In this document: positions 2,856-10,632 of the stretch, piece after piece
How the letters are laid out: each line of letters begins with the position of its first letter
Numbering within the stretch: position 1 is the stretch's first letter
Assembly (NCBI GenBank): GCA_019637955.1
Contig: JAHBUS010000005.1
Coordinates: 1-64,000, forward strand
From: Pseudobdellovibrionaceae bacterium
GTDB taxonomy: Bacteria; Bdellovibrionota; Bdellovibrionia; Bdellovibrionales; Bdellovibrionaceae
DNA: 64,000 nucleotides
Reading direction: 5' to 3'
Position numbers and translations under genes: made by a program
Notes under the pieces: model-generated
What the model saw: the letters and a program-made list of their open reading frames with translations, nothing else
Database searches by the model: none
What the model was told of the DNA's origin: nothing

Positions 2856-2868
2856 GGGAATCGAACCC
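2856..2868. repeat. Candidate attL of the ssrA island (T-loop motif)
   Basis: GGGAATCGAACCC is identical to positions 10295-10307 inside the 3' end of ssrA. The sequence to its right is also loosely like the tmRNA body (9 of 17 positions). A further motif, CTAA-N4-TTAGTT, occurs just inside the island at both ends (2897-2910 and 10251-10264). The original tmRNA acceptor sequence expected to the left is missing, so this is a candidate or a remnant. Confidence 0.4.
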
Positions 2869-2992
2869 GTAGCCGTTCGTGATCCACAAAAATTGACTAA
2901 GTGTTTAGTTCATCTTTTGGATCATCCCAATCTTAAAAAACTATCCTTGCAAAGAAACCGACCATATGGTATCTTTCAAATTGGAGGTTTAT

Positions 2993-3337
2993 ATGAATCA
3001 AAATAGTTTAGCGTATGTATATCTAGGACTTGCGATTATAGCAGAGGTTGGCGGTACGACTTTTATGCAGAAGTCTGAGCAATTCTCGAAGCTAGGACCG
3101 TCACTGATCACTGCACTTTGCTATATCTGCACATTCTACTTTCTCTCTCAGTCTTTAAAGACGATCCCGCTAGGAGTTGCGTATGGGATTTGGGGTAGTT
3201 TGGGAATAGTTCTAACCGCCATCATTGGGTATCTTGTTTTTAAACAAAAGCTAGATCTTCCTGCAATGATCGGAATTGGAATGATGGTCGGCGGAGTTAT
3301 CGTGGTTCAGGTTTTTTCAAAAACAGTTTCCCACTAA
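2993..3337 (+). CDS. Small multidrug resistance (SMR) efflux protein
   Basis: A 114-residue inner membrane protein with four hydrophobic segments, matching EmrE/QacE in length. The key membrane glutamate is in the first helix (AIIAEVGGTTFMQKSEQF) and the family motif PLGVAYGIWGSLGIV is in the third. SMR proteins work as dimers and export cationic compounds in exchange for protons. I start at the ATG at 2993 behind a strong GGAGG; the upstream in-frame start at 2966 would add a leader the family lacks. It is followed 7 bp later by a TetR regulator, a typical drug-pump pair, and sits in an AT-rich island. Confidence 0.92.
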   Translation: MNQNSLAYVYLGLAIIAEVGGTTFMQKSEQFSKLGPSLITALCYICTFYFLSQSLKTIPLGVAYGIWGSLGIVLTAIIGYLVFKQKLDLPAMIGIGMMVGGVIVVQVFSKTVSH

Positions 3338-3344
3338 CTTTAAA

Positions 3345-3902
3345 ATGAAAACAGCTTATCATCGAAAGAAACAGCCGACCGCCGTTAGAGCTGAAATTGT
3401 AACTGCTACGATTGAACTTGCCTCAAAACTTGGTCTCTCAGGCATTTCAATTCAGGCGGTCGCCGACCTTGCTAAAATAACAAAGGGAGGACTGCTCCAT
3501 CATTTTCCAAACAAGCAGTCTTTGGTTCACGCCGTATTTAATCTTCTATTGGAAAATCTTGATCTAGAAATTGATAAGCTGATGTCCGAAGATCCCGATC
3601 CCATTGGAAGCTTTACTCGTGCATATATAAAGTCGAGCTTTCAAGGTCTCGCAAAAAATAAAAATAGTATCTGGCGAGTCTTTGCAACCTCTCTATTGAC
3701 TGATTCAGATTTACGCGAGCGTTGGTATCTCTGGCTCGACGGCAGATTAGAAAAACATCGAAGCACCGACTCAGGTGTTAATCTAGAAATTGTTAGACTT
3801 GCCACCGATGGCGCTTGGTACTTACTGATAGACAAAAAGACTCGAAACTCACGAATTGCTAGTTCAAAAATTCAAGAAAATCTAATCTTAATGACCCGAT
3901 AG
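3345..3902 (+). CDS. TetR/AcrR-family regulator of the SMR pump
   Basis: A 185-residue TetR-type repressor. The N-terminal domain has the family pattern: IVTATIELASKLGLSGISIQ, AVADLAKITKGGLLHHFPNK, then SLVHAVF. The C-terminal part (about 70-185) is a helical ligand-binding domain with a Trp-rich stretch (SIWRVF, RWYLWLDG). It lies 7 bp after the SMR gene on the same strand and is presumably co-transcribed, so it likely regulates the pump in response to its substrates. A hairpin follows at 3909-3926. Confidence 0.9.
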   Translation: MKTAYHRKKQPTAVRAEIVTATIELASKLGLSGISIQAVADLAKITKGGLLHHFPNKQSLVHAVFNLLLENLDLEIDKLMSEDPDPIGSFTRAYIKSSFQGLAKNKNSIWRVFATSLLTDSDLRERWYLWLDGRLEKHRSTDSGVNLEIVRLATDGAWYLLIDKKTRNSRIASSKIQENLILMTR

Positions 3903-3908
3903 CGTAGG

Positions 3909-3926
3909 CGTCCGAAACTTCGGACG
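3909..3926. terminator. Hairpin after the SMR-TetR pair
   Basis: CGTCCGAA and TTCGGACG form a perfect 8-bp stem with a 2-nt loop directly after the TetR stop codon. No T-run follows, so it could also be an operator for the next HTH gene. Confidence 0.45.
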
Positions 3927-3930
3927 AGTG

Positions 3931-4341
3931 ATGACGATTCGTAGGCATGAGATTTATCATTTATTTATGACTTATTTAAATGGCACTACCATCGAACAAA
4001 AAATCGCCGTTGGAATCAATATAAGAATCGGAGTTTTTCTTGCCGAACAGAGAAAACTTAAAGGGCGCTCCGTGCGCACCGTTGCTCGAAAAATAAAAAT
4101 CAAACGAAGCCATCTCAAAAAGTGGGAAGCGGGAAAATCATCACTGCCTTGCCAAGTATTTTTAAAAATTGTTTCTCTCTACGGCAAAGACGCCTACCGT
4201 CTTGCGAGTGAACTAGATTTACAGCTTCAGCTGGAAAAATATCACCGCATTATTGAGCAAGAAAAAGTTCAATGCCTACAACCTCGAAAACTTCCCGCAG
4301 TTATCTGGGCAACACACCGCCGAGATAAATTAGCCTCGTAG
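3931..4341 (+). CDS. Xre-like helix-turn-helix protein
   Basis: A 136-residue protein with an HTH domain at about 30-95: IGVFLAEQRKLKGRSVRTVA, then KIKIKRSHLKKWEAGKSSLP, then VFLKIVSLYG. A basic tail follows. Start sites at 3928 (GTG), 3931 (ATG) and 3967 (ATG) are all possible and none has a convincing ribosome binding site. It stands alone between the TetR gene and a clear terminator, suggesting an island repressor. The target is unknown. Confidence 0.65.
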   Translation: MTIRRHEIYHLFMTYLNGTTIEQKIAVGINIRIGVFLAEQRKLKGRSVRTVARKIKIKRSHLKKWEAGKSSLPCQVFLKIVSLYGKDAYRLASELDLQLQLEKYHRIIEQEKVQCLQPRKLPAVIWATHRRDKLAS

Positions 4342-4372
4342 CTATCAATTAAAATATTTGCTACTGCCTTGG

Positions 4373-4395
4373 GGCCTCGTTATGAGGCCTTTTTC
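4373..4395 (+). terminator. Rho-independent terminator
   Basis: The stem GGCCTC/GAGGCC with loop GTTAT is followed by a run of five T. It lies about 30 bp after the HTH gene ending at 4341. Confidence 0.8.
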
Positions 4396-4576
4396 ATTTT
4401 CTCGCGGATTATTTTTTAATTGCGCGCGATCCTATACATACGAGGCGAACTCTAAAAAGTTTGTCCAACTACTCGGGCAGAAATGCTCGGATAGTCAGAC
4501 GAACAGACCGAGTTCTCGGATTTTACTTCGGTCGATTTTTTAGTCTGCCGAAGAAAACTCGTGAAGAGGATTTAAG

Positions 4577-4894
4577 ATGAAGAAAAAAACCGATTTTGGA
4601 CAACGAATAGAAATGCTCTGCGAGCAAAAAGAGATAACGCCGAATGAGCTTGCTCGCCGTATTTCTATTCCTCGCACGAGCGTTCATGAATGGGTAGGAG
4701 CTTCGGGGAGAGTTCCCCGCAATTTGGAGCATTTAAAAAAATTGTGCGACTTCTTTGATGTCTCCGCTTCTTTTCTTCTCTGGGGCGAGGATGAAAAAAC
4801 GCCGACTCTTGAGTCATTCATTTCAAAGACAGAAATCCACACAGGACTCTATGAAATTACTCTTAAAAAAGTTGATCCGAAAAGTAAAAAATAA
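4577..4894 (+). CDS. Small Xre regulator with FLLWGED and EITLKKV motifs
   Basis: A 105-residue protein. An HTH domain occupies about 8-62 (IEMLCEQKEITPNELARRIS, IPRTSVHEWVG). A signature FLLWGED (66-72) and a C-terminal predicted strand GLYEITLKKV (90-99) follow. The same plan occurs in the 100-residue regulator at 42010-42312 in the other island (FLLFGED, GTFEISIKRV). Both lie directly before a lipoprotein gene. The ribosome binding site GAGGATTTAAG supports the start. Upstream, 4483-4560 holds several short inverted repeats that could be operators. The role is inferred as repressor of the lipoprotein cluster. Confidence 0.8.
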   Translation: MKKKTDFGQRIEMLCEQKEITPNELARRISIPRTSVHEWVGASGRVPRNLEHLKKLCDFFDVSASFLLWGEDEKTPTLESFISKTEIHTGLYEITLKKVDPKSKK

Positions 4895-4905
4895 GGACGG
4901 AACGA

Positions 4906-5094
4906 ATGGCAACGATAGCGAGATACATTTTTAATTCTACGAGCGACGCAGAACACTGCATGGAACAACTTTGGAGACAACTCTCGGGCGGTTTTTCTCG
5001 TGGAGGTAATGAAGTCTATATTGAGAGCGGTTGTAGCGATCCACAACTAGCATCAAAAATCTGCCAAGCGTGTGGCGGAAAACTAGGAGGGTAA
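4906..5094 (+). CDS. Small hypothetical protein (62 aa)
   Basis: A short protein, 11 bp after the Xre gene and 4 bp before the lipoprotein gene, so part of the same operon. It has three cysteines (HCMEQ, GCSD, QACGG), a glycine-rich end and no signal peptide. GGACGG upstream acts as a ribosome binding site. No family is recognised. Confidence 0.6.
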   Translation: MATIARYIFNSTSDAEHCMEQLWRQLSGGFSRGGNEVYIESGCSDPQLASKICQACGGKLGG

Positions 5095-5098
5095 AACT

Positions 5099-6130
5099 AT
5101 GAACTTAAAAAATTATTTTTCTCTATTTTTAGCGGTCTTTTTCTTATCGGCTTGCGGTGGTGGCGGAGGTGGTTCAACTTCTTTGCCATCTAACGGCGGA
5201 GGAAACCCTGGCGGTGGAGGTGGCGGACCCTCGGGCGGAGGCAATGGCTCTGCGTCTTACTACGGCTTCAATAGCGCCAATGGCATCGTTTCCAATGCCC
5301 TGCCTCCGTTTGTAAGCGGTGAGCAGTTTGTCGTCACGGGTGAGCTGGCATTTATCGTCTCGAACCTAGATAATCGAACGGCAGATTATATGATTTACGA
5401 ACCAACCTGTCTTGCTGGCGTTTTAACTTATGACTATAACGCAGTCCTTGTAAAAGGTGATCCGACAGCACCGTCTCGCATCCGTATCTCTGCGGGATCT
5501 TCGAGCGTGATGATTACCGAATACACCGAACTGCAATCGGGTGCTGGCTATGTCGATAAAACCACAGAGACGAACTCAGGAACTTGTACGAACGGCGAGT
5601 TTTACTCAAGTGTGAGTCAGTGGATTGTTTTTCAAAACGGTCGCTCTATTCTTTTTAAAGACATGGATAATAATATCTACTTTGGTTTTAGAAATCAGCT
5701 CGTCGATAAATCTCTACTTCAAGCGAAGCAGTACAAGGTTTATCACCAACTTAACAATGGAGCCGTGGACGTTGCGAACAAGCTCAACACTTGGAACTCG
5801 GCTTCTGCGAGTGTTGTAAATCTTGACGCTTCATCGTCGCCCTCGGACTCGGCTTTTGGGTTTAACTCGCCACACACGACGGCGAAAGGCTTTGCCAGCA
5901 CAACTAGAGGATCACACTATACAATCCAAGGCAATTTTGCTCGTGTATGGGACAATCAAACCGCAACGGTCCCGATGATGGGCGTAACGGCGACGCTCGC
6001 AGGGAAAAATATCTCGATTCATAATGCAATCCATAGAACCTGCCAAGGCGGTGATGTCTATTCCCATAACGGACAGAATGTCTGCGATATGGTCGGCTCT
6101 GGAGCCGTGAGCTTTTATGTAGGTCAATAG
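5099..6130 (+). CDS. Glycine-rich lipoprotein of the ssrA island
   Basis: A 343-residue lipoprotein. The signal peptide ends in lipobox LSAC at about 16-19. A flexible linker rich in glycine runs to about residue 50, and a 290-residue domain of predicted beta structure with several cysteines follows. The linker suggests the domain is held away from the membrane. It is preceded by GGAGG and by an Xre gene and a small gene in one operon. No domain is recognised. The second island has an analogous Xre-lipoprotein pair. A surface or periplasmic role specific to the island, such as exclusion, is possible but not shown. Confidence 0.75.
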   Translation: MNLKNYFSLFLAVFFLSACGGGGGGSTSLPSNGGGNPGGGGGGPSGGGNGSASYYGFNSANGIVSNALPPFVSGEQFVVTGELAFIVSNLDNRTADYMIYEPTCLAGVLTYDYNAVLVKGDPTAPSRIRISAGSSSVMITEYTELQSGAGYVDKTTETNSGTCTNGEFYSSVSQWIVFQNGRSILFKDMDNNIYFGFRNQLVDKSLLQAKQYKVYHQLNNGAVDVANKLNTWNSASASVVNLDASSSPSDSAFGFNSPHTTAKGFASTTRGSHYTIQGNFARVWDNQTATVPMMGVTATLAGKNISIHNAIHRTCQGGDVYSHNGQNVCDMVGSGAVSFYVGQ

Positions 6131-6147
6131 TCAAAGGAGGCGGTTTT

Positions 6148-6741
6148 ATGTCAGCAATGATTTATAAAATTGTCTCTACTCTTTTTACGCTCGTCATTGT
6201 CGGGCGTGTTCTATTTCTCATTTTTAAAAAATTATCACCGTTTTTAAAAAGAGCGGTTTTGCTATTCAAAAGATACACGCCTAAGCCTTTTCAACTCAGC
6301 GAAGGCGAAAAGAATAAAATCTGGTTTGCTGATTATCAACAAAAAGAAAAAGCAAAAACGGAACTTATCGAGCGTGAGCATTACACCTATAAAAATACCT
6401 ACATCAATTTATCCTTAATTGCGAGAGACAGAAAAAAGTTATTCGCAGAACGCTGGACGGATTGGAAATTCAATACGAACAACTGCGAACTTTCAAGCCC
6501 TGGCGACTACCATGCGCAGTGTTTGAAAATGTTTGGCGAGATGGCTTTTGCCAGAAAATTCTTAATAGCAAAACAACCAACATTTTGGACTGAAGAAAAA
6601 GAAACATTCTGGCGAAAAATCTGCCATCCTCAAATTGCGAAAACCGATGTCCGAGAAAAAAACTTATTCGATACTCGCCAACGAATACTTGCCGATGAAA
6701 GTTTTAGTCACGGCGATGATCCTGACTCGAAGCCTGCTTAG
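6148..6741 (+). CDS. Membrane-anchored hypothetical protein
   Basis: A 197-residue protein with one N-terminal membrane segment (about 5-28: IVSTLFTLVIVGRVLFLIF). A basic stretch and a soluble, charged, aromatic-rich domain (WFADYQQ, WTDWKF, FWTEEKETFWRK) follow. It starts 17 bp after the lipoprotein gene with AAAGGAGGCGG upstream, so it is the last gene of that operon. Its 3' end overlaps the convergent gene at 6704-6988 by 38 bp. No family is recognised. Confidence 0.65.
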   Translation: MSAMIYKIVSTLFTLVIVGRVLFLIFKKLSPFLKRAVLLFKRYTPKPFQLSEGEKNKIWFADYQQKEKAKTELIEREHYTYKNTYINLSLIARDRKKLFAERWTDWKFNTNNCELSSPGDYHAQCLKMFGEMAFARKFLIAKQPTFWTEEKETFWRKICHPQIAKTDVREKNLFDTRQRILADESFSHGDDPDSKPA

Positions 6742-6988
6742 CGTGTTCTTCCATTCTCTTCTTCTGTCGATACCTCTCGAACTTTTCGAGCCGTTCCGTT
6801 TGATGATGACGGTTTAACAAGAAAAACCAACTCACCACTAAATAACTCAACCCAAAGGAATAGAAATAAACCCAAAACTCTCGACTCGGATTAGTAAAGT
6901 AAAGAATCACTGGCTGAATGAAGATCAACGCCAAAAAACTGATCCAAAGAATAACGAATCCACGAAAAACAAAATCATACTTTCCCAT
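6704..6988 (-). CDS. Small two-helix membrane protein
   Basis: A 94-residue protein with two hydrophobic segments (GFVILWISFLALIFIQPVIL and FYSFGLSYLVVSWFFLL) and a long charged tail (RLEKFERYRQKKRMEEHAKQ). It is convergent with, and overlaps, the end of the preceding gene. No good ribosome binding site is visible, which lowers confidence. A small membrane toxin or immunity protein would fit this shape, but nothing supports this directly. Confidence 0.45.
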   Translation of the reverse strand: MGKYDFVFRGFVILWISFLALIFIQPVILYFTNPSREFWVYFYSFGLSYLVVSWFFLLNRHHQTERLEKFERYRQKKRMEEHAKQASSQDHRRD

Positions 6989-7199
6989 AGAAATTAAATG
7001 GCATTACTTCTCAGATAAGATTCCACTCTTTCTATTCTCTTTATTCTTAACTTTTTAGATGATCTTGCTTCCGTCATCGGCTCAGGGAAGTCATAAAAAC
7101 TTTTCCCCGAGATTGCTCGCAAGTCTTTGCGATAGGTCTAGGAATATATATCTATATAAAACAGAATCTTACTCCTGCTTATATTCTCTCGGGTCTCAC

Positions 7200-7495
7200 G
7201 CGGATTAATGCCCGTCTTATAGAACCGTCTTCTTTTTAAGCCTCGGTATTTGTCCCTTACTGCCCCGATTGGGTTGCCCTTGTGTTGGGTGTTGGACTTG
7301 CTTAACTGGCAGGTTATAGCCCCTGCTTGCCACTCGGTGGGTCTTTTCCCGTCGAATGCCTGCCTATGCTACCAGCGTCCTGACTTACGGCTATTATTGA
7401 CGCTGATAGTGGGCGACAGTTGCCCCTCTCCGAAGTCATAAAATAAATGGAAAGATCCTAAAGCCGTCAAAAATTGCTTCTTTCCATTTATCTTC
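7200..7495. other. Structured non-coding stretch upstream of the winged-helix gene
   Basis: The 519-bp gap 6989-7507 has an AT-rich left part and a distinctly GC-richer right part (about 7200-7440) with nested inverted repeats. These include AGCGTC/GACGCT around a 19-nt loop, GGGC/GCCC next to it, and a perfect 12-bp pair ATAAATGGAAAG (7443-7454) and CTTTCCATTTAT (7480-7491). No open frame here looks coding. It could be a non-coding RNA, a 5' regulatory leader for the gene at 7508, or an origin-like site. Confidence 0.45.
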
Positions 7496-7507
7496 ATCGG
7501 AGGATTT

Positions 7508-7825
7508 ATGGATCAACAACCGCTCGCCGTGTGGCTTCTTAATTCGGAGGTGATTGGAGCGTCAGCGTTCCGCCTTTACTTCATTTTCTTAGGAGCAAAA
7601 ACGGCTCACCCAGAAAGACGGTCTCATCACTTTACCCGAGGGGATCTAGCCCGACTGACCAAGTTATCCGCCAACACTTTAAAAAAAGGACTTCAAGAAT
7701 TGAAGACCTTAAACATAGTTCTCTTAGATTCATTCGATTTACAAAGGACTATGTTCATAGTGAATGATGTGAAGGATTATAATTGGACAGAGATCAAGCG
7801 AAGACAGGGACTCGTCAATAATTGA
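7508..7825 (+). CDS. Winged-helix-like small protein
   Basis: A 105-residue protein with a helix-turn-helix-like region at about 45-80: FTRGDLARLTKLSANTLKKG, then LQELKTLNIVLLDS. This resembles the winged helix of small replication or transcription regulators (GntR/replication initiator style). A clear CGGAGG precedes the ATG. It follows the structured region 7200-7495, which it may bind or be controlled by. No replication catalytic domain is present. The fold is a tentative reading of the pattern. Confidence 0.6.
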   Translation: MDQQPLAVWLLNSEVIGASAFRLYFIFLGAKTAHPERRSHHFTRGDLARLTKLSANTLKKGLQELKTLNIVLLDSFDLQRTMFIVNDVKDYNWTEIKRRQGLVNN

Positions 7826-7956
7826 GAGGGTCGCAGGATTTGCGGAGGATTTTAAATCATTCGGGCAATTAGGTAGGGTTATTACATATAAAAAATGGCT
7901 TTTCGTCGTTCATCAATTTTTGCTGACCTCCATCACATTTAGATTTTGGAGGTTAT

Positions 7957-8199
7957 ATGTCTGAAGATCTTTTCTCATTCTTTATTGTTCCCGAGACTCC
8001 CGATCTCGATTTCAAAAATCCAAAACGCTACACGGTATTCCGCAAGTTCTCGGATGAACTGATCGCCGTGGTCTCTTATGATTGGAACGGCGACGGCTTT
8101 CGAATTCGCTACGAGGTTGATCTACCACGCTGGGAGCAGGATCAACTTGTGGCTGAAGCAAAGACGCTCGGGCGTTGGCTTTTTAAACCTGATTTATAG
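7957..8199 (+). CDS. Small hypothetical protein (80 aa)
   Basis: An acidic protein with a strong ribosome binding site (TTGGAGGTTAT), like that of the SMR gene in the same island. It has alternating short strands (YTVFRKFSDELIAVVSYDW, FRIRYEVDLPRW) and a C-terminal helix. The size and charge resemble phage-encoded inhibitors or antirestriction-type proteins, but no known family is recognised and this is speculation. Confidence 0.55.
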   Translation: MSEDLFSFFIVPETPDLDFKNPKRYTVFRKFSDELIAVVSYDWNGDGFRIRYEVDLPRWEQDQLVAEAKTLGRWLFKPDL

Positions 8200-8300
8200 A
8201 CCTTAAACCATCAAAAAACTGACCGTCTCAAATAGAAAATAGGACCGGACTAGACCTGTATTGCGCGATATAATTATCCGATAAGCCCTCGGGAGTATTT

Positions 8301-9620
8301 ATGTCGGATATTGAAAAAAAAGAAGACCAGCAATCAATCACAGAGCCATCGTCATCAGGCGAAAAGTTCGAGCATGGAAAGCTGATCGAGCCGTACATTT
8401 ACAACTGCCGAAATAAGAAAAAATTAAAGCACTATGATGTTCATTTTTATTTGGTCATCAATGGTCGCCAAGTCAATCGCAAGAAAGCCAACATCAAAGG
8501 TATTCAGAGCGCACGGAATACTTTAAAGGAGTTTCAACAAGAACTCTGGCAATTGCGACTAAAAGCAAAAAATAATGATCGAAAATGGAAAGACGCTAAA
8601 GAACGCGCTTACCGCCGAATTGAAATCAAAGTTGAAAATCGTGGCGACACTTCCGTCGAACTCGAAGACATAAAAGGCACTTTGGAAAAACACACGAAAA
8701 AATGGGACGACATTTGGTTAGGCGATTTAACTCGCATGATGATTCAAGACCATATCGAAACTCTGAAAAACGAAAAAGGGCAACCTTTAGCACCGTCAAC
8801 GAAGATTAAAATTTTTGGTTATATCAGTCGCATTTTTGACCACAATGATTGGACGAAACACAACAACCCTGCACGAGGACTCAAGCCCTATGCGTGGCGA
8901 GATATTCAAAAGAATAGAAAAATTGAAGTCGGATTGACTCACGAGGAAGTTTATCGACTCATCGAGCATGTCAGACAGAAAGATTTAGAATGGGCTTTAG
9001 TTATTTCTTTTTCCTATTTTCTTGGCGCAAGATCCGCCGAACTTTTTGCACTACGATTTGAAAACATAGTCAGAGATAAAAACGGCGAACCTGAAAAGAT
9101 AAACATTTCTCATAGCTGGGCATGGAAAAAGAAAGCTCTTAAAAAGCCAAAGAATGGCGAAGCTCGCACCGTCATGCTCAGCCAAGACATGATTGAGTTG
9201 ATTAAACTCATCGAGAAAAATAAGTTTGATGAATTTTTTATTTTGCCTCGCATTCCCGAATGGAAGAATGGAAAAGCATCGACGGTGATCCGCAAGTATT
9301 TAGAGGAACTTAAAATTATCAAGCCTGAAGCAGAGCGAGAAAAGATAAAAAAAGCTGATCGCAGGGACTCGAAAGACTGGTTTCGATTTCATGACATGAG
9401 AGCAACTATGATCAGCTTGGCTTTGGATAAAAACAATCCGCTTAAAGCGGTTGCCCATCAAGTGGGACATCTTAGTTTGCAGAGCACGAACAGGTATTTG
9501 CGAACCACAGAAGAAGAAGTGCAAAAGGCAGTCGTTAATTCGCTCGGATTTGATAGTTTTAAGCGTCCCGCTGGCGTCGAAGACATGGCAAAACACCGAG
9601 CGAAAAAGAAAAAATCTTAA
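8301..9620 (+). CDS. Tyrosine recombinase / integrase of the ssrA island
   Basis: A 439-residue phage-type integrase. The catalytic domain (about 210-430) shows the first arginine in FLGARSAELFALRFE, HDMRATMISLALDK for the His-X-X-Arg pair, VGHLSLQSTNRYL for the second histidine and the tyrosine nucleophile. The N-terminal part contains arm- and core-binding domains. It lies about 660 bp from the 3' end of ssrA, a common target of tyrosine integrases, so it most likely mediates integration there. GGGAG upstream supports the start. It ends 3 bp from a convergent Xre gene. Confidence 0.93.
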   Translation: MSDIEKKEDQQSITEPSSSGEKFEHGKLIEPYIYNCRNKKKLKHYDVHFYLVINGRQVNRKKANIKGIQSARNTLKEFQQELWQLRLKAKNNDRKWKDAKERAYRRIEIKVENRGDTSVELEDIKGTLEKHTKKWDDIWLGDLTRMMIQDHIETLKNEKGQPLAPSTKIKIFGYISRIFDHNDWTKHNNPARGLKPYAWRDIQKNRKIEVGLTHEEVYRLIEHVRQKDLEWALVISFSYFLGARSAELFALRFENIVRDKNGEPEKINISHSWAWKKKALKKPKNGEARTVMLSQDMIELIKLIEKNKFDEFFILPRIPEWKNGKASTVIRKYLEELKIIKPEAEREKIKKADRRDSKDWFRFHDMRATMISLALDKNNPLKAVAHQVGHLSLQSTNRYLRTTEEEVQKAVVNSLGFDSFKRPAGVEDMAKHRAKKKKS

Positions 9621-9622
9621 AT

Positions 9623-10048
9623 CTATTTTTGAACCAACTGAAGCCGACGAGTTGCCATACTGGTTTCAATGTAGTTAAGAATGAAGCTTAGCTCCTGCTC
9701 GTTCAATTTCGGCAGGGCTTCGACAATCAATTCCTGCGGAGTGAATTTTTCGCCGTAGCGGATACACTTCTCGCTAAAACGCTTGCGATTAGACACACCA
9801 TATAGCTTGATGATCCGATCTAAAAAGCTACCCCTCGGCAAATCCATACGACCCTGCTCAATTTGCGATATTAGCGAGTCGGAGCATCCCATTTTTTCAG
9901 CCACTTCACGCATTGATAGCCCAAGCTCACGCCGTAAGTGTTTAAGCGTTCGAGCTTCCTTGGTGAGCTTCACATCATAAGATCTGCTCTTTGGCAGAGA
10001 TCTTTTTGCCTTTGGTTTTTTAGGCGTATCACCACTATTCTCACTCAT
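9623..10048 (-). CDS. Xre-family repressor next to the integrase
   Basis: A 141-residue protein. A basic N-terminal tail is followed by an HTH_3 domain at about 34-90 (LKHLRRELGLSMREVAEKMG, CSDSLISQIEQGRMDLPRG). A C-terminal helical tail (about 105-141) may serve dimerisation. It is convergent with the integrase. Upstream of its start is a perfect 10-bp inverted repeat (10065-10092), the likely operator, so the protein probably controls its own expression and island functions. Confidence 0.85.
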   Translation of the reverse strand: MSENSGDTPKKPKAKRSLPKSRSYDVKLTKEARTLKHLRRELGLSMREVAEKMGCSDSLISQIEQGRMDLPRGSFLDRIIKLYGVSNRKRFSEKCIRYGEKFTPQELIVEALPKLNEQELSFILNYIETSMATRRLQLVQK

Positions 10049-10064
10049 TAAAAACCTCGATTTT

Positions 10065-10092
10065 AAGCTACATATTTATAAGTATGTAGCTT
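10065..10092. promoter_or_regulatory. Probable operator of the Xre repressor
   Basis: AAGCTACATA and TATGTAGCTT are perfect reverse complements around an 8-nt centre, 17 bp upstream of the start of the Xre gene. This position suits autorepression. Confidence 0.55.
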
Positions 10093-10281
10093 CATATTAC
10101 CTGAGGTCATATGAAAAGATAGTGGACTAAAATATTCATCTATTTTTGAAGCATTGGATATATTGCCTAAAAATCTAATAAGTTATTAAAATCATTATTA
10201 AATTAATAATTCGGAGTATTAGAAAAGAAAATACGCCCCTCTCGTCAAATCTAATATATTAGTTTTAATAAAAGAGGAGTA

Positions 10282-10632
10282 TGGTGGAGGCGGAGGGAAT
10301 CGAACCCTCGTCCGCAAGCGATCCGCGATCAGGCGCTACATTCTTAGTTCTTGTTTTAAGTTGGGTGTTCCGGCTTCCAAGAACAAAATCCGGCTCACCC
10401 CTTCCCAAGGAAACTCTTAAGCCGGCGCCCCTCAGAAAACAGCGCCGGCCGAGACTGCATTATGACGGAGTGCTCACCAATCACAGTCCGAATCGGTGAG
10501 CTCCGCGCTGCTTAATTAAGCTGCGAGTGCGTAATCGTTGCCAATTACAAAGTGCACGTTTTTAACGAGGTCCCCATGCGCCCCGGAATGCTCCTGATGT
10601 TTCAGCACCCACGTCGAAACCAGGTCGCCCCC
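10282..10632 (-). ncRNA. ssrA: Transfer-messenger RNA (tmRNA)
   Basis: The 5' end reads GGGGGCGACCTGGTTTCGAC and the 3' end reads TTCGATTCCCTCCGCCTCCACCA in two parts. The ends pair as a 7-bp acceptor stem (GGGGGCG with CGCCTCC) beside a T-arm. The internal reading frame at 10542-10519 encodes GNDYALAA followed by TAA at 10518-10516, a typical proteolysis tag ending in ALAA. The RNA rescues stalled ribosomes and tags the nascent chain for proteases such as ClpXP and Lon, both encoded in this window. The 3' end is the insertion point of the island to the left, which restores the complete acceptor. Confidence 0.96.
10295..10307. repeat. Candidate attR of the ssrA island
   Basis: GGGAATCGAACCC in the T-arm of ssrA repeats positions 2856-2868. 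CTAA-N4-TTAGTT, seen inside the left end, recurs inside this end at 10251-10264. The integrase gene ends about 670 bp away. Confidence 0.45.

Follow-up and report, generated by a model that had tools for sequence, protein, structure and literature searches.

Introduction

What is encoded by a non-coding, repeat-rich block of DNA that stands out from an AT-rich island and lies directly in front of a winged-helix gene? This question is raised by a locus in the window, the stretch of 64,000 nucleotides of Pseudobdellovibrionaceae DNA that was analysed as a whole. The original prediction placed the block at 7200-7495 and offered three readings of it, namely a new structured RNA, a leader, or a replication site bound by the 105-residue winged-helix protein. 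Comparison of the block with its relatives indicates that it encodes a folded RNA, about 250 bases long and not described before, that is carried in small mobile elements of the Bdellovibrionota.

Much of what had been read from the letters is confirmed. The GC content is 0.483 in 7201-7500, compared with 0.363 in 6901-7200 and 0.373 in 7651-7950, so the block is indeed GC-richer than the AT-rich island around it; the host chromosome to the right of the island has a GC content of mostly 0.5-0.65. The perfect 12-bp inverted pair (7443-7454/7480-7491) exists as part of a 16-bp inverted repeat (94%; 7440-7455/7479-7494) and directly precedes the start of the 105-aa gene at 7508. Stops occur in every frame on both strands of the core of the block, and no reading frame is open across all six homologues described below, and hence a coding role of the block was rejected. 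Folding of both strands of 7080-7507, as had been proposed, gave z = -4.55 for the minus strand, with 0 of 100 dinucleotide shuffles as good, and z = -2.39 for the plus strand, with 2 of 100 as good.

The Host Element and Its Genes

The block is part of an element at about 2856-10307 that is inserted in the tmRNA gene. A PF00589 match together with a 13-bp direct repeat at 2856 and 10295 identifies it as a tyrosine integrase element. Its ends and main genes are as follows:

2856-2868, no strand: likely left attachment repeat GGGAATCGAACCC, the only 13-mer in common with the tested stretch of the tmRNA 3' end
6148-6741, plus strand: 197-aa element protein without a family, for which relatives in sister elements were recognised by eye
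6704-6988, minus strand: 94-aa small membrane protein, the next gene downstream of the RNA, with Pfam and NCBIfam matches below the cut-offs only
7508-7825, plus strand: 105-aa winged-helix protein, a core gene of the element family (AlphaFold2 pLDDT 89.4, winged-helix matches)
7957-8199, plus strand: 80-aa element protein, with 75-95-aa relatives in sister elements by eye and no family
8301-9620, plus strand: tyrosine integrase (PF00589, 1.6e-11; phrog_1, 7e-38)
9623-10048, minus strand: HTH regulator of the Cro/C1 type (HTH_31, 4.8e-15)
10282-10632, minus strand: tmRNA gene (Rfam match)
10295-10307, no strand: right attachment repeat in the tmRNA 3' end (13-bp repeat)

Sister elements in genomes G002 and G325 adjoin tRNA-Ser genes, and five of the six RNA loci show other parts of this family of integrating elements of the Bdellovibrionota. 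Among the 20 proteins given to Pfam, a subset of the ORFs of the six elements, there was neither a reverse transcriptase, the partner of a retron or DRT RNA, nor an IscB/TnpB protein, the partner of a HEARO/omega RNA. The left end of the element contains, at 2966-3902, an SMR-type efflux gene (EmrE/Qac-like, below the family cut-offs) and a TetR-like regulator, which are apparently cargo. A large serine recombinase gene at 1026-2771 (CcrB/XisF-like, below the NCBIfam cut-off) ends just left of the left attachment repeat, and a second mobile element thus appears to be stacked beside the first.

The 105-aa protein has relatives at 13 places in 11 of 368 genomes. The AlphaFold2 model is a winged helix, and its best structural matches are tied among an archaeal regulator (Z 9.1), RepA-type initiator domains, a Vibrio protein and Pol III/TFIIE domains. 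The protein resembles the N-terminal domain of RepA-type plasmid initiators (PDB 4pql, 4pt7 and 5kbj) in its winged-helix fold, with Z of 8.5-9.0 over 94-97 residues, but differs from them in that it is equally near to the archaeal regulator and the Pol III/TFIIE domains, and the identity is 9-10%; we do not assign it to this group. As far as the model goes, the protein could be either a regulator of the sequence boxes described below or an initiator. The winged-helix genes of two sister elements look broken (L049:5675-6013, with a shifted start, and L050:5207-5482, with an in-frame TAA), and a replication-initiation-like gene is kept in both.

Homologues of the RNA

Among 59 relatives searched at the DNA level, G053 alone gave a clear match (81% over 112 nt, E 4.4e-21). 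One short match, in G002, was later confirmed by a closer comparison, in which the window, G053 and G002 were found to have a motif series in common; the many other short matches (E above 0.008) were set aside as chance. In G018, the RNA was recognised by reading upstream of the winged-helix gene. A pattern derived from the most conserved stretch matched in 5 of 143 genomes of the class and in seven stretches of a genome-contig collection. Four of these seven are real (L017, L018, L021 and L023), and the other three (L019, L020 and L022), the flanks of which are unlike the RNA, were judged to be chance matches. L034/G115 was dropped as a homologue row.

A covariance model built from four sequences, with the window and G053 excluded (R1), recovers both the window (29.6 bits) and G053 (42.0 bits); a sequence-only model scores the window almost as high (28.6 bits) and G053 at 25.7 bits. 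Over 368 genomes of the phylum, R1 found the RNA in 6, and a model built from six sequences (R2) returned these 6 again, together with two borderline places (L057 and L058) that were rejected as chance. Of the carriers, G000, G018, G002 and G005 represent four genera of the family to which the window belongs, whereas G053 comes from a different family of the order and G259 from a different family of the phylum. The core of the window is 42-55% identical to the other homologues. The RNA is rare and scattered. No result came from searches of plasmids or phages, of viral contigs with two patterns and the winged-helix alignment, or of genome contigs for which the winged-helix protein was the only query.

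Fold and Covariation

The claim of a structured block holds, with limits that differ from those first drawn: the core runs on the minus strand from 7434 to 7188 and is followed by a conserved tail to about 7075, and the block thus extends to the left of 7200. The parts of the RNA in the window are:

7188-7434, minus strand: RNA core of 247 nt, from six homologues and covariation
7434-7430 (5' strand) and 7192-7188 (3' strand), minus strand: closing helix P0, from six homologues
7075-7187, minus strand: 3' tail of the RNA, an AT-rich CUAUAUACUUAUA-like stretch and then hairpins, similar by eye in six

The core, which is 234-247 nt long among the homologues, consists of the closing helix P0, the hairpins P1, P2, D and J, and a domain formed by A, F and G. 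The six homologues were aligned by hand, helix by helix, and each row was checked against its source sequence. In agreement with the expectation that a structured RNA would show covariation in relatives, 243 of 254 cells of this alignment hold a standard pair and two-sided changes are seen in 29 of 43 pairs; these changes are few as events because the six sequences represent about four lineages. Helix A reads UUAAGC/GCUUAA in the window, CUGUUU/AAACAG in G053, CAGGA/UCCUG in G002 and CAGAU/AUCUG in G018; helix F varies among GUCC/GGAC, CCGC/GCGG and CCAC/GUGG, and P0 among UUCGG/CCGAG, GUAGG/CUUGC and GCAAG/CUUGC. When the pairing partners were slid (three slides, all in one direction), 25-41% of the cells paired (52/205, 73/215 and 94/232) and 4-6 pairs had two-sided changes. 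The alignment fitted by R1, in which the first two helices are fitted to a doubtful 5' stretch in the window and G053, is 96.2% paired, with two-sided changes in 18 of 32 pairs, levels reached by 0 of 500 shuffles, compared with 24-44% in slid versions; the D, A and F helices by themselves have two-sided changes in 11 of 14 pairs. Both the hand and the R1-fitted alignments are biased towards the structure. A MAFFT alignment of the six cores (A6), in which the A and F helices are misplaced, was excluded from the counts, and the pair counts leave aside a stretch of about 40 nt between P2 and D, an extra hairpin of the window and G053, and a pseudoknot, B. Four standard pairs of pseudoknot B, a possible part of the core, can form in all six homologues, with a register that is shifted between subgroups and a placement that is ambiguous in G018 and L018.

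The single-sequence folding energies of the six exact cores are modest (z of -2.05, -0.40, -1.34, -0.89, -3.97 and -2.10), and in L017 the opposite strand folds better (z -1.93). The pairs themselves distinguish the strands. On the minus strand, 21 cells are G-U and 2 are A-C, and the reverse is true on the plus strand, where only 224 of the 254 cells pair, indicating that the minus strand is most likely the functional strand. A conserved fold of the block RNA is well supported by these comparisons, and since the fold has been kept while most of the letters have changed, the RNA very likely does something.

In the window, GAAGTCATAAAA stands on either side of the RNA, at 7087-7098 and 7432-7443, as a perfect direct repeat of 12 bp. 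It is found in none of the five other homologues, and hence the possibility of a mobile RNA module with its own ends was rejected.

The CCATTTA Box and the Predicted Ends of the RNA

The 12-bp inverted pair, which had been taken as the end of the structured block, exists, but it lies outside the RNA fold and corresponds to divergent, promoter- or operator-like boxes. The inverted repeat is two back-to-back boxes, one belonging to the RNA and one to the winged-helix gene. A third box lies in front of the small membrane-protein gene:

7444-7450, minus strand: CCATTTA box of the RNA (TAAATGG on the plus strand), a predicted promoter element 9 nt before P0
7484-7490, plus strand: CCATTTA box of the winged-helix gene, the other half of the inverted repeat
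6995-7001, minus strand: CCATTTA box of the small membrane-protein gene (TAAATGG at 6995)

An exact CCATTTA is present 8-9 nt upstream of P0 in all six homologues, with spacer letters that are not conserved, and CCATTTA or TAAATGG occurs 7 times in the whole 64-kb window. In a survey of the upstream regions of 27 genes, 5 of 5 elements have a CYATTTA box ahead of the winged-helix gene, and 4 of 5 have one ahead of the 75-95-aa gene; the sequence in the window at the latter place is CACATTTA. For the membrane-protein gene, a pattern search gave the box in 3 of 5, with GCCATTTA in the window recognised by eye and none in G053. The box is also present ahead of the one initiation-like gene tested. 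It was found before none of 4 integrase genes and none of 4 genes for 186-210-aa proteins, and a CYATTTA-like string was seen at one of 3 HTH genes tested (L014, 46 nt off). The box is thus probably a promoter element or operator that the active genes of the element have in common. Neither a sigma-70-type promoter match at the box nor a standard intrinsic terminator in the RNA tail was found, so that the start and the end of the RNA are predictions.

The positions of the boxes bear on whether the RNA could be a cis-acting leader, similar to a riboswitch or an attenuator, of the small membrane-protein gene downstream. This gene follows on the strand of the RNA in five of the six homologues (6704-6988 in the window, and L015, L016, L017 and L018), as expected of a leader. 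However, the gene has a CYATTTA box of its own between the RNA and its start (6995 in the window; also L015 and L016), other members of the element family have this gene but no RNA, and the RNA of G053 is followed by a convergent methylase gene instead, so the arrangement is not common to all homologues; such a leader is accordingly a doubtful reading to which we give a small chance.

The proposal that the block is a leader of the 105-residue gene itself does not survive. The strand that pairs runs away from that gene, the RNA of G053 lies about 4.4 kb from it, and five elements have the gene without the RNA, and so a leader of the winged-helix gene was rejected. On plus-strand transcripts that read through 7427-7502, the ribosome site of the winged-helix gene, CGGAGGA, could pair with CTCTCCG before the box repeat. 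It is possible that this pairing locks read-through transcripts of the winged-helix gene.

The Slot Upstream of the Winged-Helix Gene

The position in front of the winged-helix gene is variable in content. It is occupied by the RNA in the window, G002 (L015) and G018, by a 262-aa replication-initiation-like gene (PHROG 270 and 391, HTH_36) in L014, L049 and L050, and by the box repeat only in the five elements L051-L055. The survey of this slot left out G354, which has a relative of the 105-aa protein (E 5.6e-5). The sequence of L017 stops short of the winged-helix gene, and L018 has a MarR-like gene, named by eye from its sequence, at the winged-helix position. In G053, the RNA is separated from the winged-helix gene by those 4.4 kb and lies beyond a methylase gene, to which it is arranged tail to tail; near this island, several similar genes for proteins of about 180 aa lie in a row on one strand (L013:2773-5380), in a duplicated or cassette-like arrangement. 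The initiation-like gene is present in 3 loci and the RNA in 6, and the two are together in none; tblastn detected no initiation-like gene in the fetched RNA-bearing loci, among which L016 and L017 are short contigs. Genome G002 carries two sister elements at different tRNA-Ser genes, L014 with the initiation-like gene and L015 with the RNA. In G259, neither an integrase nor a winged-helix gene was seen in the roughly 15 kb read, and the RNA and small membrane genes persist (L056/L018) as if they were a remnant of an element.

The exchange with an initiation-like gene in the same slot, together with the location within an integrating element, would also suit a folded single-stranded DNA site for origin, transfer or recombination, of which the minus strand would be recognised during replication or transfer; covariation that includes G-T wobble pairs does not separate single-stranded DNA from RNA. 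Known single-stranded DNA sites are generally simple hairpins. In contrast, the block forms a multibranched fold of 247 nt with a terminal helix, a promoter-like box stands at a constant spacing from it across unconserved letters, and sister elements manage without the block. A structured single-stranded DNA is thus less likely than a structured RNA, and we regard such a site as quite improbable.

The variability of the slot can also be explained if the RNA is cargo, with an accessory function apart from the life cycle of the element, for example in defence or as a host-directed regulator. The RNA is optional, in G053 it lies far from the winged-helix gene beside a DNA methylase gene, and G259 retains it with little else of the element. 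Against this, the RNA and the core genes of the element have the CCATTTA-type box in common, and no defence family was found among the 10 element proteins scanned, except for a methylase and weak HTH matches; a cargo role is unlikely, yet it is an alternative to be taken seriously.

The explanation that we favour, and that we consider somewhat better than an even chance, is a stand-alone noncoding RNA that belongs to the active phase, in which the element is excised or replicating. The box would be a promoter core, or an operator overlapping a promoter, that is used when the element is active. The RNA would begin at about P0, be transcribed divergently from the winged-helix gene and be made together with the mobilisation set of the element. 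It would then act in trans, in the form of a folded scaffold or a ribonucleoprotein and not through antisense pairing, and would serve the excised or replicating phase. The evidence for a stand-alone RNA is DNA sequence, from which we infer its transcription, ends and function. A transcribed, stand-alone, trans-acting RNA is suggested by the strand, the box, the location in G053 and the lack of antisense matches: no antisense match of the RNA to the element or the tmRNA of the window exceeds 11 nt, the longest in the element being a simple A/G-rich run of that length, and antisense control within the element was therefore rejected. The role in the active phase, which we infer from the shared boxes and the slot exchange, is the weakest step. 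As a speculative extension with little probability of being right, the RNA may replace the initiation-like protein, for example by serving as a folded primer or scaffold and, jointly with the winged-helix protein, starting or licensing replication of the excised element.

Comparison with Known RNAs

A search of the window against Rfam 15 (4227 families, gathering scores) identified tmRNA, tRNA and the small SRP RNA, and no family match in the block, as a new RNA would require. At E values up to 10, the block region gave 6 matches, and at E values up to 5, G002 gave 2 and G053 gave 1, all far below the cut-offs, and thus a known RNA family was rejected. With covariation among related elements, no match in Rfam and the minus strand as the probable functional strand, a new structured RNA is the one of the three original readings that is borne out. 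No report on the block RNA or on the element family was found in the literature searched.

GOLLD, ROOL, HEARO and OLE are orphan large structured RNAs, several of them with unsettled function, and GOLLD and HEARO are linked to mobile DNA. The block RNA resembles them in being long and elaborately folded, and resembles GOLLD and HEARO in its location on mobile DNA, but it differs in that it has no Rfam match, has a shorter core (234-247 nt) and lies on integrating elements of the Bdellovibrionota. The immunity (CI) RNA of P4 is a regulatory RNA of a phage satellite, about 70 nt long, that acts by short antisense pairing. The setting is similar, namely a small integrase element in a tRNA-type gene with an RNA in the regulatory region, whereas the core of the block RNA is about 240 nt long and its longest antisense match in the element of the window is the 11-nt run noted above.

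Noncoding RNAs are also described in a related bacterium. An RNA-seq study of Bdellovibrio bacteriovorus HD100 reports eight attack-phase RNAs, and the merRNA of this strain holds a c-di-GMP riboswitch (PMC3627812). The block RNA is like the merRNA and the attack-phase (AP) sRNAs in being a noncoding RNA of such bacteria, and appears to differ in that it has no Rfam match and was found in only 6 of 368 genomes of the phylum.

Implications

Orphan structured RNAs on mobile DNA are a known broad kind, and the novelty claimed here is that of a family, not of a mechanism: the block RNA is a member of no described family tested. The covariance models and the CCATTTA box are direct handles on this RNA family. 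A complex, well-kept RNA fold appears to be tied to the active genes of little-known mobile elements in bacteria of a predatory lineage, and the slot exchange poses the question of whether an RNA and a replication protein can serve the same step in sister elements.
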